Assembly: GCF_003987395.1 (NCBI RefSeq)
Contig: NZ_PIPT01000006.1
Coordinates: 124,001-188,000 of the forward strand
From: Pseudidiomarina aquimaris
Lineage (GTDB): Bacteria; Pseudomonadota; Gammaproteobacteria; Enterobacterales; Alteromonadaceae
Reading direction: 5' to 3'
DNA length: 64,000 bases
This document shows positions 11,349 through 51,854 of this stretch, in pieces (position 1 is the stretch's first letter; each line of letters opens with the position of its first letter). A program made the position numbers and the translations under genes. The notes beneath the pieces are model-generated. The model saw nothing but the letters and a program-made list of their open reading frames with translations, was not told the DNA's origin and did not search any database.

Positions 11349-11404
11349 TTGTCATGAAGTGTTCATAAACGCGTCACCTAGGTGTCACATAACCTCCTTA
11401 AAGT
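11349..11404 (+). promoter_or_regulatory. PhoB-type promoter of the lipoprotein / TonB receptor pair
   Basis: Four heptamers at exact 11-base period: TTGTCAT (11349), TGTTCAT (11360), GCGTCAC (11371) and GTGTCAC (11382), matching the PhoB half-site CTGTCAT with 4-base A/T-containing spacers. A -10-like TAAAGT follows the last heptamer by 10 bases. PhoB sites replace the -35 element in known Pho promoters. Confidence 0.8.
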
Positions 11405-11449
11405 GCGTTCACGAAATTCAGATTCGGCTACAATCCTTTGGAGACTAAC

Positions 11450-12919
11450 ATGAACCGCACTAAAGCTTTCGCTCTTTCTGCCCTGACCGCTTCTATGCTA
11501 CTTGCTGGTTGTGGTGGCGACATCAACTTGACGCCTACTTCAATCGACAACTCAGTTAATGAAGGTGGTGGCAGCACGCCAGATACCAACAACTGTGCTT
11601 CTTACGAGTCTTCTGGTACGACGATTCGTGGTGAGAAAATCGGTGCAGACTGCGTTTATCCACGTAGCTTCTCAACGCCAGAAAGCCCAGTGACGAGCGA
11701 CATTCGTTTGGTAGAACTGCCAGGCGGCGCGCACATTTTCCCGAATGGTCTTTATATCGGTGAAAACGTTGAAGCTACTGCAGACGTCAACCGTGAAGGT
11801 CCAACCTTGACCATCGATGCAGGTGTAACACTTGCTTTTGAAGACGGCGACTCGTTCGTACGTATTGCACGTGGTGCAAACATCATGGCAGATGGTAACC
11901 GTAACGCGCCGATCACTTTCACTTCGGTACAAGAAGTTGAAGGCTTTGACATTGACGAAAATGCCCGTGGTTTGTGGGGCGGTATCGTTATTAATGGCTT
12001 CGGTATCTCGAACAAATGTGATCAGAACGACCTAGCCAACTGTGTACTGCAAGGTGAAGGTGGCGCAGGCTTCTATGGTGGTGATGACAATGCGGATGAC
12101 TCAGGCGTATTACGTTATGCCTTGGTTAAGTATGCGGGCTACGAAGTCTCACTGGACAACGAGTTGAACGGTATCACTTTCAACGCAGTGGGCTCAGGTA
12201 CGACTCTCGAATATATCCAAGTTCACAATAACCTGGATGATGGTATTGAGTTCTTCGGCGGAGCAGCCAACGTGAAAAACGTAGTTCTGACCGGTAACGA
12301 TGATGACTCATTGGATTGGGCTGATGGCTGGCAAGGTAAGATTCAGTACATTCTGGTGAAGCATGCTGATGACCGCGCCAACCGTGCTATCGAAGCGGAT
12401 GGTAACAGCGGCAACAACGACGCAACTCCGTACTCAGACCCGATCATTGCTAACTTCACTTCAATTGGTTCGCTAACAGCTACAGATGGTTCTGACGAGT
12501 CAGAAGGTGTGTTGGTGCGTGAAGGTACGCACGGCGCATTATATAACTTTGTGATCACTGAAGCGCGTGGCGAATGTTTGGAAATCGATGATGCTGCAAC
12601 CCTAACCGCAGCAGCGAACGGTGACCTCTCTATCCAGAACTCAGTCATTGCATGTACTGAGAACTTTAAAGATACCGATACCCAGAACTGGTTCGAAGCT
12701 GGTACAGGCAACGTAACACTGAGTGCTGGCGCAAGTGTATTGACTTCAGGCTACATCACAGCAAGCGATATGGCAGACGCTTCAGGTGCACCAGTGACGG
12801 TAACGCCAAAAACTGACCTGAGCAGCATTGACCCATTCTTTGATGATGTCGACTTCATCGGTGCGGTAAGCGAAGACGACGATTGGACCAACGGCTGGAC
12901 CGTAGGCCTGCGCGACTAA
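11450..12919 (+). CDS. surface-type lipoprotein with predicted beta-helix repeats, partner of TonB receptor
   Basis: A 489-residue lipoprotein (lipobox LLAGC, Cys21) that is rich in Asn, Asp and Gly. The pattern of the body (LTIDAGVTLAF, then GLWGGIVINGFG, then SGVLRYALVKYAG, GTTLEYIQVHNNLDDGIEFFGG, DDDSLDWADGW) is that of a large family of predicted right-handed beta-helix secreted proteins, common in Bacteroidetes and marine proteobacteria, usually of unknown function. A conserved Asp cluster around DDSLDW could bind metal or substrate; this is inference. ATG at 11450 is chosen over an in-frame TTG at 11438 because GGAG precedes it and the signal peptide then starts MNRTK. Followed after 70 bases by a TonB receptor gene, with which it probably forms an operon behind four PhoB heptamers. 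A short hairpin (around 12933-12946) lies between the two genes. Confidence 0.8.
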   Translation: MNRTKAFALSALTASMLLAGCGGDINLTPTSIDNSVNEGGGSTPDTNNCASYESSGTTIRGEKIGADCVYPRSFSTPESPVTSDIRLVELPGGAHIFPNGLYIGENVEATADVNREGPTLTIDAGVTLAFEDGDSFVRIARGANIMADGNRNAPITFTSVQEVEGFDIDENARGLWGGIVINGFGISNKCDQNDLANCVLQGEGGAGFYGGDDNADDSGVLRYALVKYAGYEVSLDNELNGITFNAVGSGTTLEYIQVHNNLDDGIEFFGGAANVKNVVLTGNDDDSLDWADGWQGKIQYILVKHADDRANRAIEADGNSGNNDATPYSDPIIANFTSIGSLTATDGSDESEGVLVREGTHGALYNFVITEARGECLEIDDAATLTAAANGDLSIQNSVIACTENFKDTDTQNWFEAGTGNVTLSAGASVLTSGYITASDMADASGAPVTVTPKTDLSSIDPFFDDVDFIGAVSEDDDWTNGWTVGLRD

Positions 12920-12989
12920 ACACGGATTAGGGGCACATGGATGTGCATCTTTCCCCCGTATTTCTCAAGTCACGCAATCGGAGTTTCCT

Positions 12990-15623
12990 ATGAAAAAGCA
13001 GGCTGTTTTAACTCAAAGTAAACTGGGCCTTGCCATCGCGCTAGCGTTGTCAGGACCTGTTGCTTATGCACAACAAGAAACGTCAACCAGTGATGATACG
13101 ACAATTGAAGAAGTGGTAACCACTGGTACAAGGCTACAGGGCTCGGCTGCTGCAGTGGTTGAAGAGCGCAAGGCTCAAGCTTTCGTAGCGGATATTCTTG
13201 GTGCAGAGCAAATTTCCCGAACTGGTGATAGCGATGCAGCTGCGGCGTTGCGCCGTGTAACTGGTTTGACACTGGTGGATGGTAAATTCATTTATGTTCG
13301 TGGTTTAGGTGAGCGCTATTCAAGTACGCAATTAAATGGTGCGTCGGTACCATCACCTGATCCAACTCGAAATGTTATTCCACTTGATATGTTTCCAGCT
13401 AGCATCATCGAGAGTATGGCAGTACAAAAATCATACTCACCTGATATGCCAGCAAACTTTGGTGGCGGTAATGTTGATATTCGTACAGTCTCGATTCCAA
13501 CCGAAGAAGTGTTTGATGTTTCAATTGGAACCGGCTGGAATACTAACTTATCTGACGACGGTTTTAGTTACTCTGGCGGCAGTGATGATTGGCTTGGTGA
13601 AGACGACGGTACCCGCGCTCTCTCGCCCGAAATGTGGTCTGCCTTAGCGCGTTATCAAGAGTCGATTAACACCGCGAGTATTGCCAGCTACGAGAATATC
13701 TCGTTAGCCGAAGCCGCAGAAATTAACCGTAGCCTTGCGGCGTCAATGAATACGCAAAACGAAGTGTACAGTAAGTCGATGGCGCCTGATATCAAGGGCT
13801 CACTGACCTATGGTTCAAACTACGATTTGGGTAACGATATTACCTTTGGTTTCTTAGCCGGTGTTGATTATGACAGCGGTTGGTCGAACAATGAAGAAAC
13901 TGAAGAAGTGCTCGGTATCGCCAATGGCGAGACCGTGGTGAATCAACGCAGTGAAACCCGCGTTACTACCCAAGACGTTGAACTGAGCGGCTTATTAAAC
14001 TTCGGCTTGCAAATTGGTGACTATCATAAGCTTGAAACCTCGACGATTTTCTTACGCAACACTTCAGATCGTGTAGAGCAGGGTGGCATCGAAACGCCGA
14101 ACTCAATTAATGAGGATGGCTTAAGCTACTATGACACTGATATTCGCTATGAGCAGCGCGAACTTTTAACCAACCAAATCCGTGGCTCGCATTATTTTCC
14201 TGAACTGTGGGGCTTTGCCTTGGATTGGCAATATGCTGACTCACGCGCTAACCGTGATGCACCGGGTGAAGTCTTTTACCGCCGTATCAACAATCGCGAT
14301 CTAGGTGAAGGCATTGGTGACTTGGCGTTCCAACAGACGCGTACCGCGACCACCATGCAATTCCAAACGCTGCAGGATGATGCCCAGGATTGGCGAGTGG
14401 ATGGAGAGTTGCCATTGTATTTGGCTGATATGGAAATCTTAGTCAAAGGCGGTGGACAAGTTTCGAAAAAAGCTCGTTCTTCGTATTCACGTCGCTTCGC
14501 CTTGAGTGCTGAACAAGTGGCGAATGAAGACCTGGTTAATGTTGGCTACAACGACTTGTTTAGTGTTGGCAACATTACTGATGCTGACTTTGGTCTAGCG
14601 TTGTTTGGCGCGCCAACGGCAACCGATCCGAACTACCTTGCTGCTCAGCAAATCGAAGCTGGTTACGGCTTGCTTGATGTCCAAGTGAATCAAGATTGGC
14701 GGGTCAGCGGTGGTCTGCGTTGGGAGCAATATACCCAAGTTGCAGCGCAACTAGACATTCGCGACATGACCGTTATCGGTGACGCGGCAGAAGCAGGTCG
14801 TATGGAAGACGATATCTATGGCTCACTCGCACTGACCTATCAACTGAACGATGAAATGCAACTGCGTTTCGGCTACGGCAGCACTGTTGTACGTCCAGAC
14901 TTGCGAGAGCTAACCGAAGTCATCTTCGTTGACCCGATCACCAACTTCAAGGTGCGTGGTAACAGCGAGCTGATGACCACCGACATTGATAACTTCGATG
15001 TGCGTTGGGAGTGGTACCTGCCTTCAGGTGAAAACTACTCTGTGGCAGCGTTCTACAAAGATCTCGCCAACCCAATTGAGGCAGTGGAAGCCAAAGGTAC
15101 CGACTCCGACCGAGTGATTACCTTCTTGAATGGCCAGGCTGGTGAAGTGTATGGCGTTGAATTTGAATTCTTGAAAGACTTAACAGCGCTTGCTGACGGC
15201 TTATTTGTCACTGGTAACCTGACCCTTTCAGATTCTGAAATTAGCATCGCTAACACAGGTAACGTGGAGCTCACCAACAATACCCGTCGTATGACTGGGC
15301 ATTCGAAGTATGTTGCCAACTTGCAGTTAGGATACGATTCACTGAATGGTGAACACAGTGCCTCGTTGATCTACAACGTCGCAGGCGAGCGCATTGCGTT
15401 TGCGGGTGTGAAGCAGGGTGAAATCGGTATCGACGATGCCTTCGAGCAACCGTTCCATAGCCTGGATGCAGTTTACACGTACTACCCAGACTTCAATTCG
15501 AAGCTGAAGTTCAAGGTGCAAAATCTGTTGGGTGACGACGTTGAAATCGAGCAGAACGGTCGAATGATTCAGATGCGTACGGTCGGCACGGGCATTAGCT
15601 TGGAGTATAGCTATTCGTTCTGA
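12990..15623 (+). CDS. TonB-dependent outer-membrane receptor (Pho-controlled)
   Basis: An 877-residue outer-membrane receptor. A signal peptide ends at AYAQ (about residue 27), a TonB-box-like stretch IEEVVTTG follows (about 39-46), then the plug domain with RRVTGLTLVDGKFIYVRGLG and ESMAVQKSYSPDMPANFGGG, and a 22-strand barrel ending in the aromatic C-terminus EYSYSF typical of outer-membrane proteins. This plug signature (RGLGERYSSTQLNGA) belongs to a TonB receptor subgroup often paired with the beta-helix lipoprotein seen just upstream. ATG at 12990 has GGAG nine bases upstream. Substrate unknown; the PhoB promoter of the upstream gene suggests a phosphorus-containing compound. A strong terminator follows at 15654. 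Confidence 0.9.
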   Translation: MKKQAVLTQSKLGLAIALALSGPVAYAQQETSTSDDTTIEEVVTTGTRLQGSAAAVVEERKAQAFVADILGAEQISRTGDSDAAAALRRVTGLTLVDGKFIYVRGLGERYSSTQLNGASVPSPDPTRNVIPLDMFPASIIESMAVQKSYSPDMPANFGGGNVDIRTVSIPTEEVFDVSIGTGWNTNLSDDGFSYSGGSDDWLGEDDGTRALSPEMWSALARYQESINTASIASYENISLAEAAEINRSLAASMNTQNEVYSKSMAPDIKGSLTYGSNYDLGNDITFGFLAGVDYDSGWSNNEETEEVLGIANGETVVNQRSETRVTTQDVELSGLLNFGLQIGDYHKLETSTIFLRNTSDRVEQGGIETPNSINEDGLSYYDTDIRYEQRELLTNQIRGSHYFPELWGFALDWQYADSRANRDAPGEVFYRRINNRDLGEGIGDLAFQQTRTATTMQFQTLQDDAQDWRVDGELPLYLADMEILVKGGGQVSKKARSSYSRRFALSAEQVANEDLVNVGYNDLFSVGNITDADFGLALFGAPTATDPNYLAAQQIEAGYGLLDVQVNQDWRVSGGLRWEQYTQVAAQLDIRDMTVIGDAAEAGRMEDDIYGSLALTYQLNDEMQLRFGYGSTVVRPDLRELTEVIFVDPITNFKVRGNSELMTTDIDNFDVRWEWYLPSGENYSVAAFYKDLANPIEAVEAKGTDSDRVITFLNGQAGEVYGVEFEFLKDLTALADGLFVTGNLTLSDSEISIANTGNVELTNNTRRMTGHSKYVANLQLGYDSLNGEHSASLIYNVAGERIAFAGVKQGEIGIDDAFEQPFHSLDAVYTYYPDFNSKLKFKVQNLLGDDVEIEQNGRMIQMRTVGTGISLEYSYSF

Positions 15624-15913: not shown

Positions 15914-17188
15914 ATGCAGGACTTACAAGAAAAACTTGAAACCGCAGAACAATGGCTGATTGAACGGCCCGACATGGACACGCTTACCAAGTTAGGTTTG
16001 CTCCTGCTGGGTGCCTGGATCGCCAACTTCATAGTGAAGAAAGTTTTACTGCGTGGCTTGCTGAACCTCATCAGCTACACACCTGTGGGCAAAGATCGAC
16101 AAGCAATTGAGCGCAATATTGTGGCTCGCCTTGCGAATGTCGTTCCTGCGCTAGTCATTGCTTTCGGCATCACCTCGGTTCCTAATCTGGTTGAAGAACT
16201 CACGATTGTTGTCACTAACGTCTGTTATGCATTTATTGTCATAACCATCGCACGCGCTATCAGTGGCACGCTGACGATTATTAATATGCTCTATGAGCGG
16301 CAGCCGGATGCTCATGAACGCCCCATCAAGGGCTATATCCAAGTTGCCAAGATCGTGATCTATGCAGTGGCTACCATCTTAATGGTGGCGGTACTGATCG
16401 ATAAATCGCCAGTGATTTTGCTGTCCGGTTTAGGTGCTATGGCGGCGGTCTTGATGTTGGTATTTCAAGATACCTTGTTGAGTCTCGTGGCTAGTGTGCA
16501 AATCACCTCGAATGATATTATTCGGGTTGGTGACTGGGTCGAAATGCCAAACCTTAATGCCGATGGTGATGTCATCGATATCGCCTTGCATCAAGTCAAG
16601 GTGCAAAACTGGGATAAAACCATAACCTTTATTCCTACGCGCCGCTTCATCTCAGACCCGTTCAAAAACTGGCGCGGTATGCAGGAGTCGGGCGGGCGTC
16701 GTATCAAGCGTAGTCTATTACTCGATCAGCAAAGTATTCACTTTTTGACCGAAGATGAAATGAATGCGGTAAAGCGTTTTCGGTTGTTGAAGGATTATTT
16801 GAAAGACAAGCAACAAGAAATCGATGAGTGGAACCAGCAGCTCAAGGACGAAGGCAAAGAGCCAGTGAATACGCGCCGTATTACCAACATCGGTACTTTC
16901 CGCGCTTATGTGAAGAAATATTTGGAAAATAACGAGCGCGTGCATCAGGAAATGACACTGATGGTGCGCCAGTTAAATCCGACTTCTGATGGCCTACCGC
17001 TCGAAGTCTACTGCTTTACCAACACCACAGCTTGGACCGAGTACGAAAGTATCCAGTCGGATATTTTCGACCACTTGCTGTCGATTTTGCCTGAGTTTGG
17101 CTTACGTGTGTTCCAGCATCCAAGTGGTATCGATATGCGCGAAATGACACGAAACTTAAATCAAACTGGCACAAAAGATTCATCCTGA
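15914..17188 (+). CDS. ybdG: YbdG/MscM-type small-conductance mechanosensitive channel
   Basis: A 424-residue MscS-superfamily inner-membrane channel that opens under membrane tension. The closest known relative I recognise is E. coli YbdG (415 residues): shared N-terminus MQDL, pore-region phrase LLSGLGAMAAVLMLVFQD, beta-domain GDWVEMP, then TFIPTRRFISDPFKNW, GGRRIKRS, TNIGTFRAYV, TLMVRQLNP and YESIQSDIFDHL. About five membrane segments lie before residue 200. The conserved MQDL start supports the ATG at 15914, although only a weak GGA precedes it and the tandem heptamer array ends 11 bases upstream. The stop codon overlaps the first of five PhoB heptamers that drive the next operon. Confidence 0.92.
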   Translation: MQDLQEKLETAEQWLIERPDMDTLTKLGLLLLGAWIANFIVKKVLLRGLLNLISYTPVGKDRQAIERNIVARLANVVPALVIAFGITSVPNLVEELTIVVTNVCYAFIVITIARAISGTLTIINMLYERQPDAHERPIKGYIQVAKIVIYAVATILMVAVLIDKSPVILLSGLGAMAAVLMLVFQDTLLSLVASVQITSNDIIRVGDWVEMPNLNADGDVIDIALHQVKVQNWDKTITFIPTRRFISDPFKNWRGMQESGGRRIKRSLLLDQQSIHFLTEDEMNAVKRFRLLKDYLKDKQQEIDEWNQQLKDEGKEPVNTRRITNIGTFRAYVKKYLENNERVHQEMTLMVRQLNPTSDGLPLEVYCFTNTTAWTEYESIQSDIFDHLLSILPEFGLRVFQHPSGIDMREMTRNLNQTGTKDSS

Positions 17189-17240
17189 CATAAAACTGCC
17201 ATAATACAGTCACCAAGCTGTCACAGAACTGACGTATCTT
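17185..17240 (+). promoter_or_regulatory. PhoB-type promoter of the TonB2 operon, five heptamers
   Basis: Five heptamers at exact 11-base period: CTGACAT (17185), CTGCCAT (17196), CAGTCAC (17207), CTGTCAC (17218), CTGACGT (17229). A -10-like TATCTT (17235-17240) begins 10 bases after the fourth heptamer, the spacing also seen upstream of phoB, pstS and pstC here. The first heptamer overlaps the stop codon of the channel gene. Confidence 0.88.
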
Positions 17241-17276
17241 GCACACCATCATTCACAACGTGTGCAAGGTGTTTCC

Positions 17277-18068
17277 ATGAACCCATGTTTCACTCGCACG
17301 CTGTTGGTGGCCAGTTTTCTAGCCACCGTAGGCGTTGCCAGTCCGCAATTAAACGCGCAAGAACAGGCACTCGACCCCGTGGTCGACGCTGCTAATGAAA
17401 TCAACCAAGCTGCGCGTTCTTCTCAACTTACCGTCGATAAAATTGCCGATACGACGCAAGAGCGTTTGCAGCAGTACAAGCAAATTAGTCGTCAAATCGA
17501 AGGACTCGAAGTCTATGTGCAGCAACTGCAAAAGCAGATCGCGTCGCAACAGACCGAAAAAAGCGATTTGAACGCCTCAATCGATGAAGTGAGCGTCGTC
17601 GAGCGTCAAATCACACCTCTCATGCTGCGCATGATCGATAGCTTGGCTACCTTTGTGGAGCTAGATGTTCCTTTCTTACCAGAAGAACGCAACAACCGTA
17701 TCGCCGGACTTGAGGACTTGATGGACCGTGCCGATGTTGATGTGTCTGAGAAGTTTCGTCGGGTTATGGAGGCCTACCAAATCGAGTCGGAATATGGTCG
17801 TACGATTGAAGCCTATAACGGTGCGATGGAAGTCAATGGCCAAAGCCAAGATGTCGAATTCCTTCGCGTAGGGCGCACCGCGCTTATCTACAAGACCCGT
17901 AATGGTGACACCATGGGTGTCTGGAATCAGCAAGCGCGAGCTTGGCAAGAGCTGGACTCCAGTTATGCCGCAAATGTTCAAGAAGCACTCCGTATCGCGC
18001 GTAAGCAACTTGCGCCGGACTTGTTGATGTTGCCGATCTTTCACTCTGACGTTCAGGCAGGAGAGTAA
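17277..18068 (+). CDS. DUF3450 periplasmic protein, first gene of TonB2 operon
   Basis: A 263-residue exported protein: signal peptide to about residue 27 (LNAQ), a long coiled coil (about 30-100, many Q/E/K heptads), then a globular part containing the DUF3450 patterns VPFLPEERNNRIAGLEDLMDR, EKFRRVMEAYQIESEYGRT and LRVGRTALIYKT. The family is regularly encoded beside TtpC-type TonB systems; its role is unproven. I see a resemblance to the periplasmic domain of the next gene product (see findings). ATG at 17277 (AAGGT upstream) is preferred to an in-frame GTG at 17262. It opens a six-gene operon with 3-16 base gaps or short overlaps. Confidence 0.88.
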   Translation: MNPCFTRTLLVASFLATVGVASPQLNAQEQALDPVVDAANEINQAARSSQLTVDKIADTTQERLQQYKQISRQIEGLEVYVQQLQKQIASQQTEKSDLNASIDEVSVVERQITPLMLRMIDSLATFVELDVPFLPEERNNRIAGLEDLMDRADVDVSEKFRRVMEAYQIESEYGRTIEAYNGAMEVNGQSQDVEFLRVGRTALIYKTRNGDTMGVWNQQARAWQELDSSYAANVQEALRIARKQLAPDLLMLPIFHSDVQAGE

Positions 18069-18071: not shown

Positions 18072-19442
18072 ATGTTGAAGCTCAAACATTTGTTAACTGC
18101 CGTCGTGTTGGTGGCTAGCTCGTTCACAATGGCTACGCCCACTATTGCCCAAGAACCGGTTGACTTAGACCAACTTCTACAGCAGTTGAAAGAAGGTAAG
18201 TTTGCCCAGTCGCAAGCCAACCAGGAACGTGAAGCTCGGTTTCGTGCGCAAGCAGAGCAACAGCAGCAAATTCTGCGCGACGCGATTGCCCAGCGTGATC
18301 AATTAGAGGCTCTGAGTGCTGAACTCGAAGGGCAGTTTGAAGAAAATGAACGTGATTTAGCGGCACTTGAAGATGCGCTTACCCAGCGCATGGGCTCGCT
18401 GAAAGAGTTATTTGGTGTGTTGCAGCAAGTCGCTGGCGATACGGCAAGCACGCTACAGAATTCCTATGTATCAGTAGAGTTTCCAGGCCGCAGTGATGCT
18501 CTAAGTGACTTGGCACAGAAAATGGGCTCAAGCTCTAAGCTAGCCAGTATCGAAGAAATTGAGTCGGTGTGGTTTGCGCTTCAGCAAGAAATGACCGAGT
18601 CGGGCAAAGTGAGTCAGTTTGACACCACTGTAACCTTGGCGAGTGGTGAGAAAGTAGAGAAGTCCGTCGTGCGGGTTGGTACTTTCAATATGGTTGCTGA
18701 TGGCAAATACCTTGAGCTGATTCCCGGTACCGATGCTGTTGCCGAGTTAGTTCGTCAGCCGAGTGGCCGTTACTTATCGACTGTTGAAGCACTAGAGCAG
18801 GGCGATGAAAACCCAGTGCGTTTTGGTTTAGACCCTACCGGTGGCTCAATTCTTGGTTTGCTTGTGCAAGCACCGGGCACCATGGAACGTATTGAGCAAG
18901 GTTCGACTGTGGGTTACATCATTCTTGGCTTAGGTGTGATTGGTTTATTGATTGCACTGGAGCGCTTTATCACCTTGACCCTGATGGGCGGCAAAGTGAA
19001 GCGTCAATTGAAGCAAAATGATGCCAAACAAGATAATCCGTTGGGCCGCGTTATGGCGGTACAAGATAAGTATCCGCAAGTCGACACTGAAACTCTGGAG
19101 CTGAAACTAAGCGAAGCGATCTTGCGTGAGGTACCTAAGATTACCCGCAACTTGACCTTTATTAAGATCATCTCAGTGGTGGCGCCTTTGCTGGGTCTAC
19201 TCGGTACGGTAACCGGTATGATTAACACCTTCCAAGCCATTACCTTATTCGGTACGGGCGACCCGAAACTCATGGCAGGTGGTATTTCGCAAGCGTTGGT
19301 AACCACCGTACTCGGTTTGGTTGTAGCGATTCCGATGACGTTACTGTTCGCGACCCTTAACACGCGTAGCCGAAATATTGTGCACGTCTTGCAGGAACAG
19401 GCCTCTGGCATTATCGCGGAGCGTTCTGAGCGGAGTCACTAA
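18072..19442 (+). CDS. ttpC: TtpC: MotA/TolQ/ExbB-family protein with periplasmic extension
   Basis: A 456-residue fourth component of Vibrio-type TonB2 systems. Signal peptide (cleavage after IAQ, about 27), coiled coil about 45-115, a periplasmic globular domain to about 275, then the proton-channel unit: membrane segments near 278-300, 366-388 (PLLGLLGTVTGMI, the ExbB/TolQ signature) and 408-428. In Vibrio, TtpC is needed for TonB2-driven siderophore uptake; here the operon is headed by PhoB sites instead of an iron box. The stop TAA overlaps the ATG of exbB2 by one base. Confidence 0.92.
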   Translation: MLKLKHLLTAVVLVASSFTMATPTIAQEPVDLDQLLQQLKEGKFAQSQANQEREARFRAQAEQQQQILRDAIAQRDQLEALSAELEGQFEENERDLAALEDALTQRMGSLKELFGVLQQVAGDTASTLQNSYVSVEFPGRSDALSDLAQKMGSSSKLASIEEIESVWFALQQEMTESGKVSQFDTTVTLASGEKVEKSVVRVGTFNMVADGKYLELIPGTDAVAELVRQPSGRYLSTVEALEQGDENPVRFGLDPTGGSILGLLVQAPGTMERIEQGSTVGYIILGLGVIGLLIALERFITLTLMGGKVKRQLKQNDAKQDNPLGRVMAVQDKYPQVDTETLELKLSEAILREVPKITRNLTFIKIISVVAPLLGLLGTVTGMINTFQAITLFGTGDPKLMAGGISQALVTTVLGLVVAIPMTLLFATLNTRSRNIVHVLQEQASGIIAERSERSH

Positions 19443-19986: not shown

Positions 19987-20394
19987 ATGAAACAACATTT
20001 TGCTAATTTACTTGACGAAGAAGAAGCGCAAATTGATATGACGCCGATGCTGGACGTGGTGTTTATTATGCTGATCTTCTTCATTGTTACCGCAACCTTT
20101 GTGAAAGAGGCGGGGATTGACGTGAATCGTCCAGATGCCGCAACTGCTGTACAAAAAGATCGTGCCAACATCTTGGTTGCTATTAGCGAAACCGGAGAGA
20201 TCTGGATCAACAAACGTCAGGTCGACGTACGCGCAGTGCAAGCGAATATTGAACGGCTATATGCCGAGAATCCGCAAGGTTCAGTAGTGATTCAAGCTGA
20301 CAAGCTCGCGACTACCGAAACCCTGATCAAAGTCATGGATGCAGCACGGGCTGCTGGTGTGTTCGATGTCTCGATTGCCGCACAGGAAGAATAA
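19987..20394 (+). CDS. exbD: ExbD2 subunit (biopolymer transport)
   Basis: A 135-residue ExbD/TolR protein with one N-terminal membrane helix. The family motif IDMTPMLDVVFIMLIFFIVTATF carries the membrane aspartate (Asp at LDVVF) needed for proton conduction. Periplasmic C-terminal domain follows. Gap of 11 bases after exbB and 3 bases before tonB. Confidence 0.94.
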   Translation: MKQHFANLLDEEEAQIDMTPMLDVVFIMLIFFIVTATFVKEAGIDVNRPDAATAVQKDRANILVAISETGEIWINKRQVDVRAVQANIERLYAENPQGSVVIQADKLATTETLIKVMDAARAAGVFDVSIAAQEE

Positions 20395-21003: not shown

Positions 21004-21013
21004 GAGAAAAACC

Positions 21014-43694: not shown

Positions 43695-44999
43695 ATGGAT
43701 AAACGATTCTCCGCCGTATTTATTCTGCGCGGCTTCCTTTGGTATGTCGCCCCTCTTGCCGTAATCGGCTGGCTATTTGGCTATTTCTGGCAAGTGTTGA
43801 GTATCGGCTTACTCGGCATTCTCGCGTGGCATTACTTCTATCAATACAAGCTTGTCGATTGGTTGTGGCACCGTCGCACCATGTTGCCGCCGAGTGCTCC
43901 GGGTAGCTGGAGCTATATCTACGACGGAATCTACCGTACGCAGCGTCGCAGCCAACAACGTCGTCGTGCGCTTGCGCGTATCTTGCGTCGCTTCCGTGAG
44001 GCCTCAGAAGCTATTCCTGATGCGGCAATTGTGTTTCGTAAGGACGGTGGGCTGATTTGGTGTAACAAGCTTGGACAGTTTTATTTTGGCTTAAAGTGGC
44101 CTGCGGACACGGGCATTCGGTTGTCAAACCTGATCCGTTACCCAGAGTTTATTGCGTACTTGCAAAAGGGTGACTTTAGCCAAGAAATTTATTTGCCGTC
44201 GCCGGTGCGCGAAGATATCGAGTTAGAAATTCGCGTCATGCCTTACAGCGAGGATCAATACTTGCTGATGGCGCGTGATGTGACTCAGCTGCGCCGGCTC
44301 GAGCAAATGCGCAAAGACTTTGTTGCCAACGTATCTCATGAATTGAAAACACCGTTGACGGTTATTCAAGGCTACCTCGAAATGCTCGACGATGATGTCA
44401 GTGCGATGCCTCCTGCGCTGCTACAAAAAGCGGTGAAGGATATGAATGGGCAGTCGACACGGATGCGTAATTTGGTCGACCAACTGTTATCGTTGTCACG
44501 CATTGACTCAGCCCGCGGGGATATTTTTGAGCGCGCCGTTAATGTTCCGGAACTGCTTCGTCGTATCCAACAAGATGCCGAGCAACTCAATCAAGCAAAA
44601 CAGCATGACTTACGATTTGAGATTGCTGACCAGACAATGTATGGGCGCGAAGATGAGTTACGCAGTGTGTTCGCCAACCTCATTACTAACGCCATTCATT
44701 ATACTCAGCCAAAGGGCACGATTACCGTGCGCTGGCGCTCTGTTGGTAAACAAATGGAATTTAGCGTCACCGATAATGGCCCGGGCATTCCGGCCGAGCA
44801 TATTCCGTTGTTGACCGAACGCTTTTACCGCATCGATAAAGATCGCAATAGTAGCAAAGGCGGCTCAGGACTTGGCTTAGCTATCGTTAAGCAGGCCGTT
44901 GAGCATCATCATTGCAAACTTACCATCGACTCCGTAGTAGGACGTGGTTCGACCTTTAGTGTGCGAGTTCCAGAAGAGCTGGTGATTACGCCCGCATAG
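43695..44999 (+). CDS. phoR: phosphate regulon sensor histidine kinase PhoR
   Basis: A 434-residue inner-membrane kinase: two membrane segments (about 15-48), a basic linker (RTQRRSQQRRRALARILRRF), a PAS domain (about 100-195), the H-box SHELKTP with His215, and a HATPase domain with NLITNAIHYT, DNGPGIP and GSGLGLAIV. No large periplasmic domain, as expected for PhoR, which reads phosphate status through PstSCAB and PhoU. Length 434 against 431 in E. coli. Confidence 0.97.
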   Translation: MDKRFSAVFILRGFLWYVAPLAVIGWLFGYFWQVLSIGLLGILAWHYFYQYKLVDWLWHRRTMLPPSAPGSWSYIYDGIYRTQRRSQQRRRALARILRRFREASEAIPDAAIVFRKDGGLIWCNKLGQFYFGLKWPADTGIRLSNLIRYPEFIAYLQKGDFSQEIYLPSPVREDIELEIRVMPYSEDQYLLMARDVTQLRRLEQMRKDFVANVSHELKTPLTVIQGYLEMLDDDVSAMPPALLQKAVKDMNGQSTRMRNLVDQLLSLSRIDSARGDIFERAVNVPELLRRIQQDAEQLNQAKQHDLRFEIADQTMYGREDELRSVFANLITNAIHYTQPKGTITVRWRSVGKQMEFSVTDNGPGIPAEHIPLLTERFYRIDKDRNSSKGGSGLGLAIVKQAVEHHHCKLTIDSVVGRGSTFSVRVPEELVITPA

Positions 45000-45000: not shown

Positions 45001-45029
45001 GTGACACTAAAATGGCAGAAATATGACAA
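45001..45029 (-). promoter_or_regulatory. inverted PhoB heptamer array between phoR and pstS
   Basis: On the minus strand three heptamers at 11-base period: TTGTCAT (45029-45023), CTGCCAT (45018-45012) and GTGTCAC (45007-45001). They point back into phoR, opposite to the pstS promoter 12 bases away, and no gene reads in that direction. Possibly an extra binding site that helps loop or load PhoB. Confidence 0.7.
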
Positions 45030-45040
45030 ATAAATAGCTG

Positions 45041-45074
45041 TTGTCATTAAAGTGTCACATTGACCTGCTAAAAT
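45041..45074 (+). promoter_or_regulatory. PhoB-type promoter of pstS
   Basis: TTGTCAT (45041) and GTGTCAC (45052) at 11-base period, then exactly 10 bases later the -10 TAAAAT (45069-45074). The best match to the classical Pho promoter layout in the window. Confidence 0.92.
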
Positions 45075-45153
45075 TCCCAGTGTTGATTAAGCAAAGCTAA
45101 GTTTTTAACCCATTATTTTTGGCATGACCTTAGCACAGACACTTGGAGTCATT

Positions 45154-46125
45154 ATGAAAGTTAAATCAGTACTTCTTGCTTTAAGCGTAGCCGGCCTCGT
45201 AGCCACTTCAGCACATGCGCAAAAAGCTACCGACAACCTTCCTGAATACGAGAAAGTAAGCGGTTTATCTGGCAACCTTTCTTCTGTTGGTTCAGACACC
45301 TTGGCCAACATGATGACCTTCTGGGCAGAAGAGTTTAAGCGCCTCTACCCGAACGTGAACATGCAGATTCAAGCGGCTGGTTCATCAACTGCGCCACCGG
45401 CCCTTACTGAAGGAACTTCAAACTTTGGCCCAATGAGCCGTGGTATGAAGTCGAAAGAAATCGAAGCTTTTGAAAAACGTCATGGCTACAAACCGACGCC
45501 TGTTCGCGTAGCAATCGATGCCTTGGCGGTATTCGTGCACAAAGACAACCCAATTGAAGGCATGACCATTGCTGAAGTTGACGCAGTATTTAGTAACACA
45601 CGTCTTTGTGGCGCTACTGAACAAGTTCAGCGTTGGGGCGATTTAGGTCTAACTGGCAGCTGGGGCAACCGCGACTTGCAGCTATACGGTCGTAACTCAG
45701 TATCAGGCACCTACGGTTACTTCAAAGAGATCGCCCTTTGTGACGGTGATTTCCGCGCGAACGTGAATGAACAGCCAGGTTCAGCTTCTGTTGTGCAGTC
45801 TGTTTCAACCTCGTTGAATGCTATCGGTTACTCAGGTATCGGCTACCTAACCTCTGGTGTTAAAACCGTGCCTATCGCGGTTGAAGAAGGCGGTGAGTAT
45901 GTGGATGCGACAACTGAAAGCGCATTGGCTGGTAAGTACCCACTTGCACGCTTCTTGTACGTTTACGTAAATAAGCACCCAAACAAGCCACTTGACCCAG
46001 CAACTGCTGAGTTCTTGAAAATGGTACTGTCGAAAAAAGGACAAGAGATTGTCGATAAAGACGGTTACATTCCGCTGCCGAAAATGGTCGTTGAGCAAGA
46101 ACTAGAAAAGCTCGGACTCAACTAA
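45154..46125 (+). CDS. pstS: periplasmic phosphate-binding protein PstS
   Basis: Phosphate-capturing subunit of the PstSCAB ABC transporter. The 323-residue protein has a Sec signal peptide ([15 protein letters not shown]...SAHAQ) and the PstS-like pattern [28 protein letters not shown] (the phosphate loop), [12 protein letters not shown] and [17 protein letters not shown] 45154 with GGAG upstream is used; the in-frame ATG at 45124 would add ten residues before the signal peptide. Followed by a strong terminator and, 228 bases later, pstC with its own PhoB site. Confidence 0.95.
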
Positions 46126-46240: not shown

Positions 46241-46274
46241 CGGTTTTCGTGAAAATGTCAGTTTTATGACGGTG

Positions 46275-46308
46275 CTGTAACAATTCTGTCATACTTCTCG
46301 ACTATACT
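46275..46308 (+). promoter_or_regulatory. PhoB-type promoter of pstC-pstA-pstB-phoU
   Basis: CTGTAAC (46275) and CTGTCAT (46286) at 11-base period, then exactly 10 bases later TATACT (46303-46308), 44 bases before the pstC start. Confidence 0.88.
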
Positions 46309-46352: not shown

Positions 46353-48593
46353 ATGGCGGCAGCAAAACCCTCAATGGGAGCCAGCAATTATCGACTCTTT
46401 AAAGACCGCGCGGCGCGCTGGGGCGTAAGCTTCGGCGGGGTGATGGTCTTGGTCGCATTGTTGCTCATCTTCTTTTACCTACTTTACGTAATCGAACCGA
46501 TTTTCCGTGGGGTCGAAATCAACCACCAACGCAGCTTCCAAACGCCGGCGGAGAATGTCGTCGCCATGGGCATGGAAGAGCAATCGGAAATTGGTTACCA
46601 GTTCACCGCTGAAGGTGAGTTGGTGTATTTTGCAATGCAGGCAAAGAAAGGTACCGATTGGCAGCCTGGTCAGGAACTATTGCGGGCCAAAGTGACGGCG
46701 GAGCAGCCGACTGCGTTTACGCAAACGCAGCCGCAAAACAACCGTTATGCCTATGCTGTACCCGGTGGTTCGGTGCGAATTGTGGAGCCCAAGTTCAACA
46801 GTCGTTTTATTGACGGTGAAATGTTTGTCGAGCCGCGCGAGGTTGAACTTTCAGATCGGGAATTACTGCAGGTTGATCCGCAGCAACAAAACATCGTGAA
46901 GCTTGCTTATGAATATGATGGCGAGTCGAAGTTGTTTGCAGCGCAAACCAGCGACGGTCGTGTGCTGGTAAACTTTATGCAAGCCAAGCGTAACTTTTTA
47001 AGTGGCGCAGTGGAAATGGAATCAAAGGTTAGTGAGCTGCCGATTAACGGCGCAGTTGACCAGCTGGTGGTTACCCCTGATTTGCGCCAAGTGATGGTGC
47101 GGCAGAACAATCGTTTTTGGGTTTATGATGTGACCCGTACGGGTTCCATAAAAGAACGTCAGTTGATTAATGTGGATGCGCGACGCTATGGCGAAGTGAC
47201 CTCAATGAGCCTATTAGCGGGCGCGAGCTCGGTGTTGTTTGGCCATGCCAACGGTAAAATCACGCAATGGTTTGAAGTAGCCGGTGACGATGGTCGCCGC
47301 TATCAGTTCATTCGTGACTTCCAAGCGGCTGACAGCGCGATTGCCGAGATCGTTGTTGAGTATTACCGCCGCACCTTCTACACCATCGCCGAAAGCGGCG
47401 AAGTAGGCGTGTTCCACACCACCTCAGAAGCAGAGTTGTACCGTGGACACCCTGATGCTTATCAAGCCGAGCAACTCGTTATCGATCCTCGCGCAAATAC
47501 CTTACTGATGCGTGAAGGCAATCAGTTGCATATGTTCGAACTGATCAACGAACACCCAGAAGTTACTTGGAGTGGTTTGTGGCAGGAAGTCTGGTATGAA
47601 GGTTATCCGGAACCAGATTACGTGTGGCAGTCGACTTCGGGTTCAGATGACTTTGAACCGAAGTTTAGCTTAGTCCCGATCTCTTTCGGTACCATTAAAG
47701 CAGCGGCCTACGCTATGTTGTTTGCGGTACCGATTGGCCTCGCAGCCGCGGTCTATACTGCCTACTTCATGTCGCCAAGCGTGCGCAAAGTAGTGAAACC
47801 AACCGTAGAAATCATGGAGGCGTTGCCGACAGTTATTCTTGGTTTCTTGGCTGGGCTATGGCTGGCGCCGCTGGTGGAGTCCTATCTACCAGGAATCATT
47901 GCGGTAATCGTGTTGGTGCCGTTAGCCATCGTGTTATTTGCGGCGGCGAGCGCTTTGCTGCCGCAAGTGATTCGGGCGCGTCTCACCGACGGTCGAGCTG
48001 CGTTAGTTCTAGTACCGTTGGTCGCTTTTGTCGGTTGGCTCTCGTTTCAACTGTCACCAGCGATCGAGAACGTTCTATTTGATGGCAACGTGCGTCAGTA
48101 TCTCACCAACGAACTTGGTATTACCTTCGACCAGCGTAACTCGTTGGTAGTGGGGATCGCCATGGGCTTTGCGGTGATACCAACTATTTTCTCGATTGCC
48201 GAAGATGCCGTATTTAGTGTACCGAAGCACTTATCGAACGGCTCGTTAGCACTTGGTGCAACGACGTGGCAGACGCTCACCAAAGTCGTTTTGTTAACGG
48301 CGAGTCCAGGGATTTTCTCGGCTGTCATGATGGGGCTTGGTCGTGCCGTTGGTGAGACCATGATCGTGCTTATGGCGACGGGTAACACGCCTATTATGGA
48401 CTGGAATATCTTTGAAGGAATGCGCACCTTGTCGGCCAATATCGCCGTTGAAATGCCAGAGTCTGAAGTTGGCAGCTCGCATTATCGCATTCTGTTCTTG
48501 GCGGCCTTTGTGCTCTTTGTTTTCACCTTCGCGTTCAATACGGTGGCGGAACTTGTTCGTCAACGTCTACGCGATAAATACAGCTCGATGTAA
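46353..48593 (+). CDS. pstC: phosphate ABC transporter permease PstC, long form
   Basis: Inner-membrane permease of PstSCAB. At 746 residues it is more than twice E. coli PstC (319): after a first membrane helix (about 28-50) comes a periplasmic domain of about 390 residues, then the permease domain from about 450 with IKAAAYAMLFAVPIGLAAAVY, EIMEALPTVILGFLAG and the ABC-coupling loop region LALGATTWQTLTKVVL. Long PstC forms of this kind are usual in Vibrio, Pseudomonas and Alteromonadales. pstA follows 14 bases later. Confidence 0.95.
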   Translation: MAAAKPSMGASNYRLFKDRAARWGVSFGGVMVLVALLLIFFYLLYVIEPIFRGVEINHQRSFQTPAENVVAMGMEEQSEIGYQFTAEGELVYFAMQAKKGTDWQPGQELLRAKVTAEQPTAFTQTQPQNNRYAYAVPGGSVRIVEPKFNSRFIDGEMFVEPREVELSDRELLQVDPQQQNIVKLAYEYDGESKLFAAQTSDGRVLVNFMQAKRNFLSGAVEMESKVSELPINGAVDQLVVTPDLRQVMVRQNNRFWVYDVTRTGSIKERQLINVDARRYGEVTSMSLLAGASSVLFGHANGKITQWFEVAGDDGRRYQFIRDFQAADSAIAEIVVEYYRRTFYTIAESGEVGVFHTTSEAELYRGHPDAYQAEQLVIDPRANTLLMREGNQLHMFELINEHPEVTWSGLWQEVWYEGYPEPDYVWQSTSGSDDFEPKFSLVPISFGTIKAAAYAMLFAVPIGLAAAVYTAYFMSPSVRKVVKPTVEIMEALPTVILGFLAGLWLAPLVESYLPGIIAVIVLVPLAIVLFAAASALLPQVIRARLTDGRAALVLVPLVAFVGWLSFQLSPAIENVLFDGNVRQYLTNELGITFDQRNSLVVGIAMGFAVIPTIFSIAEDAVFSVPKHLSNGSLALGATTWQTLTKVVLLTASPGIFSAVMMGLGRAVGETMIVLMATGNTPIMDWNIFEGMRTLSANIAVEMPESEVGSSHYRILFLAAFVLFVFTFAFNTVAELVRQRLRDKYSSM

Positions 48594-48607
48594 GCGAGAG
48601 GATTTCC

Positions 48608-50263
48608 ATGAAGCAATGGTTTAACTCAGGAAAACCCTGGATTTGGCTCACCGCAGGTTCTGTGAGTATCAGTCTGATCGCGGTTATCGGGCTGCTGATA
48701 CTGATTGGCTGGCGCGGTCTGTCGTTCTTTTGGCCAGCGCAGATCCACGAGATGGATGTGCGTGCCAACGATGGCTCGATTTCGACCATCATTGGTGAAG
48801 TCTATGATACCGAAACGATTCCGCTTGAGCGTTTACAAGAGTCGGGTGTACAGCTGGATAACTTCAATGAACCGACACTTGATCGCTGGTTGATTAAGAT
48901 TGGTAACCGTGAATACGTGCCACTTGATTTTACTTGGGTGCTCAAGCCGCAAATCGTCCGCGACGAAACGCCTTCCGATTTGGCTAAATTAGAACGCTCG
49001 AAAGACGGTAACTTCTACGGTTACGTCGTCGATGTTCTCGAAAATGGCGAGTCAGTAGCGAATTCAGAGAACGTGCATCAAATTCTTGAGGAGCGTATAG
49101 AGCGCGTCGTTGAAATCAACGAGCAAGCTGCGGATCTGCAAGACACCGAAATTGGTGCCATCAACTATCAGTTGAACCAGTTGCGTCTTGAGCGACGCGC
49201 GTTGGATCTTGAAGGGCAACTCACCGCTGAGGAAGAGGCTCGCATCAGTGCCGCTGAGCAACAACTGCGTGAAGACTATCAAGTGCTGGAACAAGAGCTG
49301 TTCGAACTGCGTGATCAAGCTAGCCGTGATGAAGTCGTGATGCGCGACATGCGTGGAGTAGAAGTAACGCTACCGATGTATCGCATGTTAGCCGTGTACT
49401 TTCCAAACGACATGAACTTGGTTGAAAAGCTTGGCCACTTCTTCGTCCAAATCGGTAAGTTCGTCAGCGAAGACCCGCGCGAAGCGAACACTGAAGGTGG
49501 TGTATTCCCAGCGATTTTCGGTACCGTATTTATGGTGCTGTTGATGTCGGTGATTGTGACGCCATTTGGTGTCGTTGCTGCAATTTACCTGCATGAATAC
49601 GCAGGTAAAAACGCAGTGACTCGGCTTATACGGATCGCGGTGATTAACTTGGCGGGTGTACCCTCGATTGTTTACGGGGTATTCGGTTTAGGTTTCTTCG
49701 TCTACATGGTGGGTGGTTCGCTTGACCAAATCTTCTATCCAGAAGCCTTGCCGAGCCCAACCTTTGGTACACCGGGCGTCATGTGGGCGGCGATTACCTT
49801 GGCGATTCTAACTTTGCCAGTGGTCATTGTCTCGACCGAAGAAGGTTTGTCGCGTATTCCAAGCACGCTGCGCGAAGGTAGCTTGGCACTCGGTGCGACC
49901 AAAGCTGAAACCCTGTGGCGGATTATTATTCCAATGGCGTCACCGGCGATTATGACCGGTCTGATCTTGGCCGTCGCCCGAGCGGCGGGTGAGGTTGCAC
50001 CATTGATGTTGGTAGGTGTGGTGAAGTCGGCACCGATGTTACCGGTGGATGGTAACTTCCCGTACTTCCATTTAGATCGCAAATTTATGCACTTAGGTTT
50101 CCACATTTATGATGTTGGCTTCCAGAGCCCGAACGTTGAAGCGGCGCGGCCGCTGGTTTACGCCACCTCGTTCCTGTTGGTAACGGTGATTATTGGCTTG
50201 AACTTAACGGCTATTGGTGTGCGTAACCATTTACGTGAAAAGTATCGCTCACTTGAGCATTAA
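48608..50263 (+). CDS. pstA: phosphate ABC transporter permease PstA, long form
   Basis: Second permease of PstSCAB, 551 residues against 296 in E. coli. One N-terminal helix (about 15-38), a periplasmic region with a strong coiled coil (about 150-240, EERIERVVEINEQ through QLREDYQVLEQELFELRDQ), then the permease domain with PFGVVAAIYLHEYAG, GVPSIVYGVFGLGFF and the coupling loop LREGSLALGATKAETLWRI. The extended periplasmic parts of PstC and PstA may interact. Confidence 0.95.
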   Translation: MKQWFNSGKPWIWLTAGSVSISLIAVIGLLILIGWRGLSFFWPAQIHEMDVRANDGSISTIIGEVYDTETIPLERLQESGVQLDNFNEPTLDRWLIKIGNREYVPLDFTWVLKPQIVRDETPSDLAKLERSKDGNFYGYVVDVLENGESVANSENVHQILEERIERVVEINEQAADLQDTEIGAINYQLNQLRLERRALDLEGQLTAEEEARISAAEQQLREDYQVLEQELFELRDQASRDEVVMRDMRGVEVTLPMYRMLAVYFPNDMNLVEKLGHFFVQIGKFVSEDPREANTEGGVFPAIFGTVFMVLLMSVIVTPFGVVAAIYLHEYAGKNAVTRLIRIAVINLAGVPSIVYGVFGLGFFVYMVGGSLDQIFYPEALPSPTFGTPGVMWAAITLAILTLPVVIVSTEEGLSRIPSTLREGSLALGATKAETLWRIIIPMASPAIMTGLILAVARAAGEVAPLMLVGVVKSAPMLPVDGNFPYFHLDRKFMHLGFHIYDVGFQSPNVEAARPLVYATSFLLVTVIIGLNLTAIGVRNHLREKYRSLEH

Positions 50264-50293
50264 TTAACGAAGCAGAAGCGAAAAGGTCTTACT

Positions 50294-51112
50294 ATGATTT
50301 CGGTAACTCCGACAAACAATCAGGCAGAGAGCCTCGATTTAGAAAATTTAACGGCGGATCAAACCGCTCTGGAAATTCGCAATTTGAATCTGCACTACGG
50401 CGATGCTCAAGCTTTGCATGATATTTCCATGGCAATTCCAAAGAACCGCGTCACCGCTTTTATCGGCCCATCGGGCTGCGGTAAATCAACCTTATTGCGT
50501 TGTATTAACCGCATGAACGACTTGGTTGAGATTTGTAAAATTACCGGCGAGATTCGTCTGCACGAGAAAAACATCTATGACAAAGATGTCGACGTTGCGG
50601 AATTACGTCGTCGTGTGGGCATGGTATTCCAGCGCCCGAACCCGTTCCCAAAATCAATTTACGAGAACGTGGTTTATGGCATGCGCTTGATGGGTGTGAA
50701 CGACCGCCGTACTTTAGATGAAGTGGTCGAGCGTTCATTGAAAGGCGCAGCACTTTGGGAAGAAGTAAAAGATCGTCTAAACGCGAGTGCTTTCAGCTTG
50801 TCAGGTGGTCAGCAACAACGTTTGGTCATCGCCCGCGCTATCGCGATCGAGCCTGAAGTATTGTTGCTCGATGAACCGACTTCGGCACTTGACCCAATTT
50901 CAACTTTGACGATCGAAGAGTTGATCACTGAGTTGAAAGAAAAATACACCGTAGTCATTGTCACGCATAACATGCAACAAGCGGCGCGGGTATCGGACCA
51001 GACAGCCTTTATGTACATGGGTAAGCTGATTGAATATGCTGATACCAATACGCTGTTTACCACGCCGACCCAGAAGCAAACCGAAGATTACATTACTGGA
51101 CGTTACGGCTAA
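50294..51112 (+). CDS. pstB: phosphate ABC transporter ATP-binding protein PstB
   Basis: ATPase of PstSCAB, 272 residues. Walker [10 protein letters not shown] (about 57-65), PstB signature [20 protein letters not shown] signature LSGGQQQR, Walker [14 protein letters not shown]-loop [10 protein letters not shown]. An N-terminal extension of about 30 residues (to LEIRNL) precedes the ABC domain. Starts 30 bases after pstA. Confidence 0.97.
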
Positions 51113-51125
51113 GAGGAGCTGAATC

Positions 51126-51854
51126 ATGGATAAATTAAATACTGGTCGGCACATCTCCGGCAAATTTAATGACGAACTCGATGCCGTCCGTACCCAAGTG
51201 ATGAACATGGGCGGCTTGGTTGAGCAGCAACTACGTGACTCGCTGGTCGCGATTGAAAACTCAGACCATGAGCTTGCCGAGCAAGTCTTGCAACGCGACT
51301 ATAAAATTAACGCGTTGGAAGTGCAGATTGATGAAGCTTGTGTGCAAATCATTGCCAAACGTCAGCCTGCGGCAAGTGACCTGCGTTTGATTATCGCTAT
51401 TTTCAAAACCATTGCCGACTTAGAGCGCATTGGTGATGAAGCTGAGCGTATTGCGCGTGTGGCTCTTGAGAGTTTCAACAACGACCAGCAGCAGTTCTTG
51501 GTCAGTCTTGAGAACCTCGGTCAGCAGGTCTTGGCGATGTTGCATGGCGTGCTTGATGCATTTGCACGTATGGACCTCGACAGCGCCTATGAAGTGCACC
51601 AAATGGACGCCCAAGCCGACCGTCAATACGAAGGCTTAACGCGTCAATTGATGACTTACATGATGGAAGACCCGCGTGGGATTCCGAAGGTCATGAATGT
51701 ACTTTGGTCAGCGCGTTCACTCGAGCGCATCGGTGACCGTTGCCAGAACATCGCCGAGTACATTATTTTCTTCGTCAAAGGTAAAGACGTACGTCATGTG
51801 TCGCCAGAATCCATGGCGCGCACCGTGGGTCGGCCGCAGCCTGACACTGAGTAA
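51126..51854 (+). CDS. phoU: phosphate signalling regulator PhoU
   Basis: Links PstSCAB activity to PhoR and restrains phosphate uptake. The 242-residue all-helical protein shows the two PhoU repeats with metal-site motifs: DLRLIIAIFKTIADLERIGDEAERI and NVLWSARSLERIGDRCQNIAEY. Ends the pst operon, 13 bases after pstB, and is followed by a strong terminator. Confidence 0.97.
   Translation: MDKLNTGRHISGKFNDELDAVRTQVMNMGGLVEQQLRDSLVAIENSDHELAEQVLQRDYKINALEVQIDEACVQIIAKRQPAASDLRLIIAIFKTIADLERIGDEAERIARVALESFNNDQQQFLVSLENLGQQVLAMLHGVLDAFARMDLDSAYEVHQMDAQADRQYEGLTRQLMTYMMEDPRGIPKVMNVLWSARSLERIGDRCQNIAEYIIFFVKGKDVRHVSPESMARTVGRPQPDTE

Follow-up and report, generated by a model that had tools for sequence, protein, structure and literature searches.

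A putative outer-membrane system for phosphorus acquisition in Pseudidiomarina aquimaris, with a TtpC-type TonB motor of its own under probable PhoB control

The locus analysed here lies in a window of 64,000 nucleotides (the whole stretch of DNA studied), positions 124001–188000 of contig NZ_PIPT01000006.1 (contig C19) in the 2.80 Mb, 22-contig genome of Pseudidiomarina aquimaris. Between positions 11349 and 51854 it holds a lipoprotein gene followed by the gene of a TonB-dependent receptor, a motor operon comprising the complete TtpC-type set (DUF3450–TtpC–ExbB–ExbD–TonB–TPR), a porin, two Oar-like TonB receptors, a hydrolase of the EEP family, and the phosphate genes phoBR, pstS and pstCAB-phoU. 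A sequence-only reading of the window had proposed this gene content, and had placed PhoB-type repeats in eight of the intergenic regions. Pfam and NCBIfam profile matches agree with it, and the named genes are all present. The features are listed below in window coordinates; likely start codons are taken from reading the sequence.

11349–11388, + strand: four PhoB-type heptamers at 11-bp phase, before the lipoprotein/receptor pair; the weakest array (best pair 12.3)
11438–12919, + strand: lipoprotein, best named as ElpS-type; likely start ATG 11450; lipobox LAGC; no Pfam match
12990–15623, + strand: TonB-dependent receptor, partner of the lipoprotein (Pfam/NCBIfam); CC0171-like by position
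15914–17188, + strand: MscS-type mechanosensitive channel, between receptor and motor
17185–17235, + strand: PhoB-type array of five heptamers at 11-bp phase, before the motor operon
17262–18068, + strand: DUF3450 protein, opening the motor operon (domain match); likely start ATG 17277
18072–19442, + strand: TtpC, with a DUF3450-like N-terminal part and a MotA_ExbB domain
19442–19975, + strand: ExbB (domain match)
19987–20394, + strand: ExbD (domain match)
20398–21003, + strand: TonB, 201 residues (TonB_C match)
20987–22276, + strand: TPR protein, last gene of the motor operon (domain match)
22320–22348, + strand: PhoB-type array of three heptamers, before the porin
22383–23354, + strand: porin (Porin_4 match)
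23.4–34.4 kb: housekeeping block, to which we assign the names AEC-type transporter, xseA, guaB, guaA, lytic transglycosylase and purL
34405–37518, − strand: OarA, Oar-like receptor (CarboxypepD_reg and OMP_b-brl_4 barrel)
37577–37605, − strand: PhoB-type array before oarA (matrix scan)
38229–41480, − strand: OarB, second Oar-like receptor (CarboxypepD_reg and OMP_b-brl_4; 35% identity to OarA)
41586–41603, unstranded: PhoB-type site common to oarB and eep (matrix scan)
41652–42896, + strand: EEP-fold lipoprotein hydrolase, a candidate phosphodiesterase/phosphatase; likely start ATG 41700; lipobox LNGC
42916–42933, + strand: PhoB-type site before phoB (matrix scan)
42982–43668, + strand: phoB (domain match)
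43695–44999, + strand: phoR (domain match)
45001–45058, unstranded: PhoB-type sites before pstS (matrix scan)
45124–46125, + strand: pstS (PstS-type binding protein match)
46255–46292, unstranded: PhoB-type sites before pstC (matrix scan)
46353–48593, + strand: pstC (BPD_transp_1 permease domain; named by position)
48608–50263, + strand: pstA (BPD_transp_1 permease domain; named by position)
50294–51112, + strand: pstB (domain match)
51126–51854, + strand: phoU (domain match)

PhoB-type sites were scored with an ad hoc matrix built on the heptamer consensus CTGTCAT with an 11-bp phase; the matrix and the cut-offs of 14 and 13.4 were our own choice, and were fixed after the first scan. When the whole window was scanned, all 13 sites scoring at least 14, and all 15 scoring at least 13.5, fell in the named intergenic regions, which make up only 1059 of the 64000 bases (1.65%). 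Of the eight regions, seven hold one or more of the top 15 sites; these are overlapping pairs inside arrays and hence not independent, and the regions had been picked by the earlier reading, although the scan itself was window-wide. The next-best site, of 13.4, is at 16410, within mscS. First-order Markov versions of the window contain on average 2.5 sites of at least 14, with a maximum of 6 in 30 runs. Direct heptamers with an 11-bp spacing are clear at seven of the eight regions, those at the lipoprotein being weak, and oarB and eep are served by one shared site.

Across the whole genome, the pattern with one mismatch has 13 matches, of which the window holds 6 (binomial P about 2e-7). Of the other seven, two are intergenic and five are inside a reading frame or at the end of one. 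When up to two mismatches are allowed the excess is small, at 77+87 matches compared to 44+74 for a reversed-pattern control. Two overlapping PhoB-type sites are also found on contig C1 (G000:C1:564496-564524; L010:1490-1520), in the gap between an rnfA-like frame, about 50 bases away and in the opposite direction, and a glycosyltransferase-like frame about 590 bases away.

Conservation of the sites was analysed in 80 loci, the best 80 of 173 relatives of the DUF3450 protein, with flanks of up to 10 kb (shorter in some). These consist of 36 Alteromonadales-type loci (Idiomarina, Pseudidiomarina, Alteromonas, Bowmanella, Aestuariibacter, Thalassotalea and Rheinheimera, the last being labelled Chromatiaceae in the tree), 20 from Vibrionaceae, and 24 from other metagenome bins; the nearest named matches in this set are from Pseudidiomarina sp. 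CB1 and P. homiensis, at 92% identity. In the 250 bases upstream of the motor operon the best site scores at least 14 in 33 of the 36 Alteromonadales-type loci and 13.4–13.8 in the remaining three. None of the 44 other loci, the 20 from Vibrionaceae among them, has a site of 13.4 or more, the top score being 13.2.

A similar picture is seen gene by gene. Here loci in which the start was not covered, or was too close to the end of the locus, were dropped, so that the counts are smaller than the number of loci. A site of at least 14 is found before DUF3450 in 26 of 30 aligned starts (compared to 1% of mononucleotide shuffles, which for all promoters pass at a rate of 0–3%), before the porin in 21 of 23 relatives, before pstS in all nine, and before pstC in five of seven. 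The proportion is lower for phoB (7/13, and 15/26 in a second set of loci that includes our own) and for the lipoprotein (8/15, and 7/14 in distant lipoprotein loci). With the own locus included, the eep promoter reaches 14 in 14 of 30 loci and 13.4 in 22, and the oarA promoter in 11 and 14 of 22, respectively. By contrast, control positions are at background: no site of at least 14 was found before exbB (0/36), exbD (0/35), tonB (0/36), the TPR gene (0/29), mscS (0/14), the AEC transporter (g23419; 0/26), guaB (0/15), xseA (0/15, with two reaching 13.4), or the genes at 6884 (0/23) and 4899 (0/9), nor in the second set before tadA (0/24), phoR (0/26) or the receptor (0/22). There are two before ttpC (2/27), and one each before the receptor (1/18) and rdgC (1/26). 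Sites upstream of the gene at 9542 (15/26) we read as belonging to a divergent intergenic region, which in these genomes has the lipoprotein gene, the motor operon or mscS on its other side. The sites are therefore retained in orthologous promoters, as is characteristic of a Pho regulon, and on this sequence evidence it is very probable that PhoB controls the TtpC-type motor.

The TtpC proteins were compared in a tree of 84 sequences, grouped by the origin of the locus and not by site score. All 41 Alteromonadales-type rows are on one side of a single branch, with support of 100/100; they consist of the 36 loci, the window, three Pseudoalteromonas replicons and the Alteromonas plasmid pBGP9. 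Two of the four loci added from these replicons and the plasmid score only 13.0 and 13.8 for the promoter site. Outside the Pho-type TtpC clade are the 20 Vibrionaceae rows and a paralogue from the same genome. A comparison of the island across Alteromonadales, as the sequence-only reading had proposed, finds the Pho-type motor promoter kept across several families and, among the loci compared, restricted to a single TtpC clade.

The paralogue belongs to a second Ton system on contig C2, which has the same order DUF3450-ttpC-exbB-exbD-tonB-TPR, and identities to the window system of 41% for TtpC and 35% for TonB. The genome contains three ExbD matches, the third of which (on contig C18) is not part of a Ton motor: sequence reading marks it out as TolR, within a tolQRAB-pal cluster. 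Two additional proteins with a TonB_C end were also set aside as motors, again by sequence reading; one looks like a membrane peptidase of the BlaR/M56 type (L006:1483-2682, − strand), and the other like a secreted protein. After the C2 operon (L118:9581-11528) there is a small secreted protein rich in Cys and Lys, and then two genes that resemble a peptide-modification pair of the DUF692/DUF2063 type.

Iron control through Fur is typical of the TtpC systems studied in Vibrio, but is not a structural feature of them. The best Fur-like match before the window operon agrees with the consensus at 10 of 19 positions, where chunks of the window peak at 10–11; Fur control of this operon was therefore rejected. 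Before the paralogous operon the best match is 13 of 19, a score reached by 6 of 255 window chunks.

The lipoprotein encoded next to the receptor has a lipoprotein signal with the lipobox ASMLLAGC, identified by reading the sequence. It has no Pfam match, to SusD or any other domain, and membership of the SusCD/PusCD type was rejected. Relatives of the lipoprotein adjoin TonB receptors in Alphaproteobacteria (Sphingomonas, Indioceanicola), where genes for a type II secretion system (T2SS) come next, and in Bacteroidota (Aureibacter). Identities to the Indioceanicola pair are 37% for the lipoprotein and 30% for the receptor, and the receptor is 25% identical to that of Aureibacter. The T2SS-adjacent homologous pairs match the published gene order elpS(cc0170)-cc0171-gsp of Caulobacter, and the pair is therefore best named as ElpS-type, an assignment made through the alphaproteobacterial pairs and the published order and not through the ElpS sequence itself. 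This identification as the ElpS/CC0171 type, which has a published link to phosphate, is new relative to the sequence-only reading. In the window, the pair is flanked by RdgC, a histidine kinase, MscS and the TonB motor, with no adjacent T2SS. The MscS channel is probably outside the uptake system. Elsewhere in the order, many genomes (L190-L218) have the lipoprotein doubled, and once tripled, within a single frame of approximately 900–1380 residues, each copy of which matches the window protein.

The predicted structure of the lipoprotein is rich in β-strand and of moderate quality, with a predicted local distance difference test (pLDDT) score of 70.6. Foldseek gave no match to this model below an E value of 0.001; among the weaker matches are polysaccharide lyases, pectin methylesterases, phage tailspikes and an adhesin. 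We take the top ones to be mostly β-helix proteins, and the model suggests that the lipoprotein is likely a β-helix as well. Sequence searches of the PDB with the receptor, lipoprotein and EEP proteins found no match within the limits set, except for one to the receptor profile at E 0.0068, which was taken as chance.

The pair, the motor and the phosphate genes also tend to be found together. At least one of phoB, pstS, the lipoprotein and the receptor is present in the fetched flank of 30 of the 36 Alteromonadales-type loci and in none of the 44 others, the queries being the window's own proteins at 35% identity and 80 bits or more, so that distant relatives of the pair beside other motors could escape. 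In 11 Idiomarina-type loci the genes for porin, transporter, PhoB and PhoR come after the motor operon, with pstS as well in the nine where the flank reaches that far. Alteromonas KUL49 has the order phoB, phoR, pstS, lipoprotein, receptor, motor; the A. macleodii plasmid pBGP9 is the same with a 2-oxoglutarate oxygenase after pstS. Four Bowmanella loci have lipoprotein-receptor-motor, and three Pseudoalteromonas secondary replicons motor-lipoprotein-receptor. A TtpC with at least 60% identity is found in 14 of 197 genomes of the order, the next match listed being at 48%. All 14 carry the lipoprotein, which itself occurs in 32 of the 197 (hypergeometric P 5e-13, for genomes that are not phylogenetically independent). 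Within the genus, 25 of 26 genomes have the lipoprotein. On the basis of these observations the motor is likely to serve the ElpS-type pair.

The secreted EEP-family hydrolase that had been placed among the island genes stands up well: it is a lipoprotein with a PF03372 domain and the EEP fold, and the active-site residues usual for such enzymes, N54, E106, H252, D309, N311, D403 and H404, are invariant in 21 aligned rows. The fold search gives generic matches (endonuclease/exonuclease/phosphatase proteins, sphingomyelinases and TDP2), and hence the fold does not decide the substrate. The gene is present in 36 of 59 genomes searched, our own included. It lies immediately upstream of phoB, at a distance of no more than 150 bases, in all 26 loci of the same genus, again including our own; 25 of them have a gene for an Oar-like receptor on its other side. 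The matching region in one relative (L132) holds a TGA and was kept out of the alignment. Searches of the genome for PhoX, PhoD and the β-propeller phytase found no match (PhoA was not searched), whereas in a control set of 14 genomes the same searches found each of these families two or three times over.

Several known systems resemble parts of this island. In Caulobacter crescentus, the lipoprotein ElpS (CC0170) is produced when phosphate is scarce, is anchored at the cell surface and is tied to extracellular phosphatase activity; its gene is followed by that of a TonB-dependent receptor, and T2SS genes are the neighbours of the pair (PMC2996285). The island has the same gene succession for the pair, but the neighbours are a TtpC-type motor and, further on, phosphate genes. 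Caulobacter PhoB also controls various TonB receptors thought to import phosphorus compounds, as would be the case here, though the available part of that account names no Ton motor (PMC11208175). In Flavobacterium, the lipoproteins FI and FII are strongly induced by phosphate limitation, have TonB-dependent receptors nearby, and are reported to be 31–36% identical to the Caulobacter protein (PMC8115612). By description, the lipoprotein/receptor pairs of F. johnsoniae PUSIII and PUSIV are like the island pair, FII being in a phoBR cluster, and an orphan phosphate-induced receptor carries pf13620, as do both Oar-like receptors of the island; differences are the phylum, the pf13715 domain of the receptors adjacent to FI and FII, and the lack of a Ton motor in the published table (PMC8115612).

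In Pseudomonas aeruginosa there is a precedent for Ton genes tied to phosphate, although the set differs in make-up. This is PUMA3, where exbB2-exbD2-tonB4 belong to a PhoB/sigma-VreI phosphate-starvation circuit; the passages available name no DUF3450, TtpC or TPR gene, place the set with a two-partner secretion system, and call it still uncharacterised (PMC4971064, PMC7035377). The Vibrio loci in our comparison have the island's order of DUF3450, TtpC, ExbB, ExbD, TonB (undetected in one) and TPR, and Vibrio TonB2 and TonB3 systems of the TtpC type have been studied for iron transport (PMC6957404). The 20 Vibrionaceae loci differ in having no Pho site of 13.4 or more and a TtpC outside the Pho-type clade. 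Among the best matches listed in searches of openly licensed papers, none describes a PhoB-controlled TtpC/TonB system in Alteromonadales.

Taken together, we consider it fairly likely that the island encodes a PhoB-controlled outer-membrane system for phosphorus acquisition with its own TtpC-type motor. At low phosphate, sensed through Pst/PhoU, PhoR and PhoB would bind and activate the eight promoters. The ElpS-type surface lipoprotein would capture or position a phosphorus source at its partner receptor, and the co-induced DUF3450-TtpC-ExbB-ExbD-TonB-TPR complex, paired physically with that receptor, would supply energy from the proton-motive force and pull the cargo into the periplasm. The two Oar-like receptors and the porin would broaden the range, the EEP-fold lipoprotein would cleave phosphodiesters or monoesters, and the phosphate set free would enter the cell by way of PstSCAB. 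It is on balance a reasonable supposition that the cargo moves inward and consists of phosphate or a compound of phosphorus.

A number of observations weigh against this reading. In this genome the lipoprotein promoter is the weakest, with a best score of 12.3 despite its four phased heptamers; no Pho site precedes eep in four loci from other genera (L155-L158); and a match of 13.9 is found 212 bp before the paralogous DUF3450 gene. The long branch of the paralogue, one of those for which the program warns about long rows, makes its position in the tree unsure. Thirteen of the 14 genomes with a close TtpC are from one family, and 18 of the 32 with the lipoprotein have no TtpC of at least 60% identity, so that the pair can work with another motor. 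In six of the 36 motor loci neither phoB or pstS nor the lipoprotein or receptor is in the fetched flank. Finally, Caulobacter cc0171 is reported to be constitutively expressed, and intracellular phosphate in Caulobacter to be unchanged on shift to poor medium (PMC2996285).

The six loci also bear on the sequence-only description of the transducer as dedicated and switched on by PhoB. The conserved Pho-type promoter in one clade agrees with this, but exclusive use does not follow, and we take dedicated in the sense of separate regulation only. A TonB protein can serve more than one receptor. The operon could accordingly be a general second motor, boosted under phosphate stress and energising many receptors including those for iron; this we regard as unlikely. 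Such sharing is common, the genome has 22 TonB_dep_Rec_b-barrel matches for only two Ton systems with ExbB and ExbD, and in the six loci the fetched flank has neither pair nor pho genes. However, the second TtpC system is free for general use, the Pho-type promoter runs throughout one clade, the close TtpC is accompanied by the lipoprotein in all 14 genomes, and no Fur-like match above background precedes the operon.

It is rather less probable still that the pair is not an importer, with the lipoprotein aiding an extracellular phosphatase or being an enzyme that acts on surface polymers, and the receptor and motor working in display, release or signalling. When ElpS is secreted, alkaline phosphatase activity outside the cell does go up, and the protein is itself released (PMC2996285); FI and FII are said to resemble polygalacturonases (PMC8115612), and the weak fold matches of the predicted model, among them polysaccharide lyases, pectin methylesterases, tailspikes and an adhesin, point the same way. 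Against this, it is a complete TonB motor, joined in many relatives by pho/pst genes, and not a T2SS, to which the pair is linked, and the searches for PhoX, PhoD and phytase (PhoA again aside) gave no match for the lipoprotein to assist. That the sites are chance heptamers and the operon has no phosphate control, as the short consensus, the mild genome-wide excess at two mismatches and the weak lipoprotein site might suggest, was rejected as extremely improbable given position-specific conservation in tens of loci with control positions at background.

Some further features of the window can be noted. The housekeeping genes do split the island into two parts, as had been claimed, and the island contains tadA (37622–38110) and the MscS channel (15914–17188), neither of which the earlier reading mentioned. 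Beyond phoU there is a HipA-type kinase with HipA N- and C-domains (52268–53554, − strand), overlapped upstream by a small frame (53544–53891, − strand) that may be a HipB-like partner. A 6S RNA gene is at 58130–58312 (− strand; Rfam RF00013, 109.3 bits).

Tentatively, a TonB motor under PhoB control could have evolved in Alteromonadales for the active transport of phosphate, or of molecules that bear it, over the outer membrane by way of an ElpS-type surface lipoprotein and its receptor. Entry of phosphate across the outer membrane is usually credited to diffusion through porins. If the proposal is true, entry would be energy-driven throughout a clade of marine bacteria, by a PhoB-controlled Ton motor. 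The system would then do for phosphorus what siderophore uptake does for iron, in an organism with no match to three common secreted phosphatase families (PhoA not having been searched), and surveys based on phosphatase marker genes can then miss a phosphorus strategy. It would also give a testable role to lipoproteins of the ElpS type, known in Caulobacter since 2010 (PMC2996285) and abundant in phosphate-starved Flavobacterium (PMC8115612).

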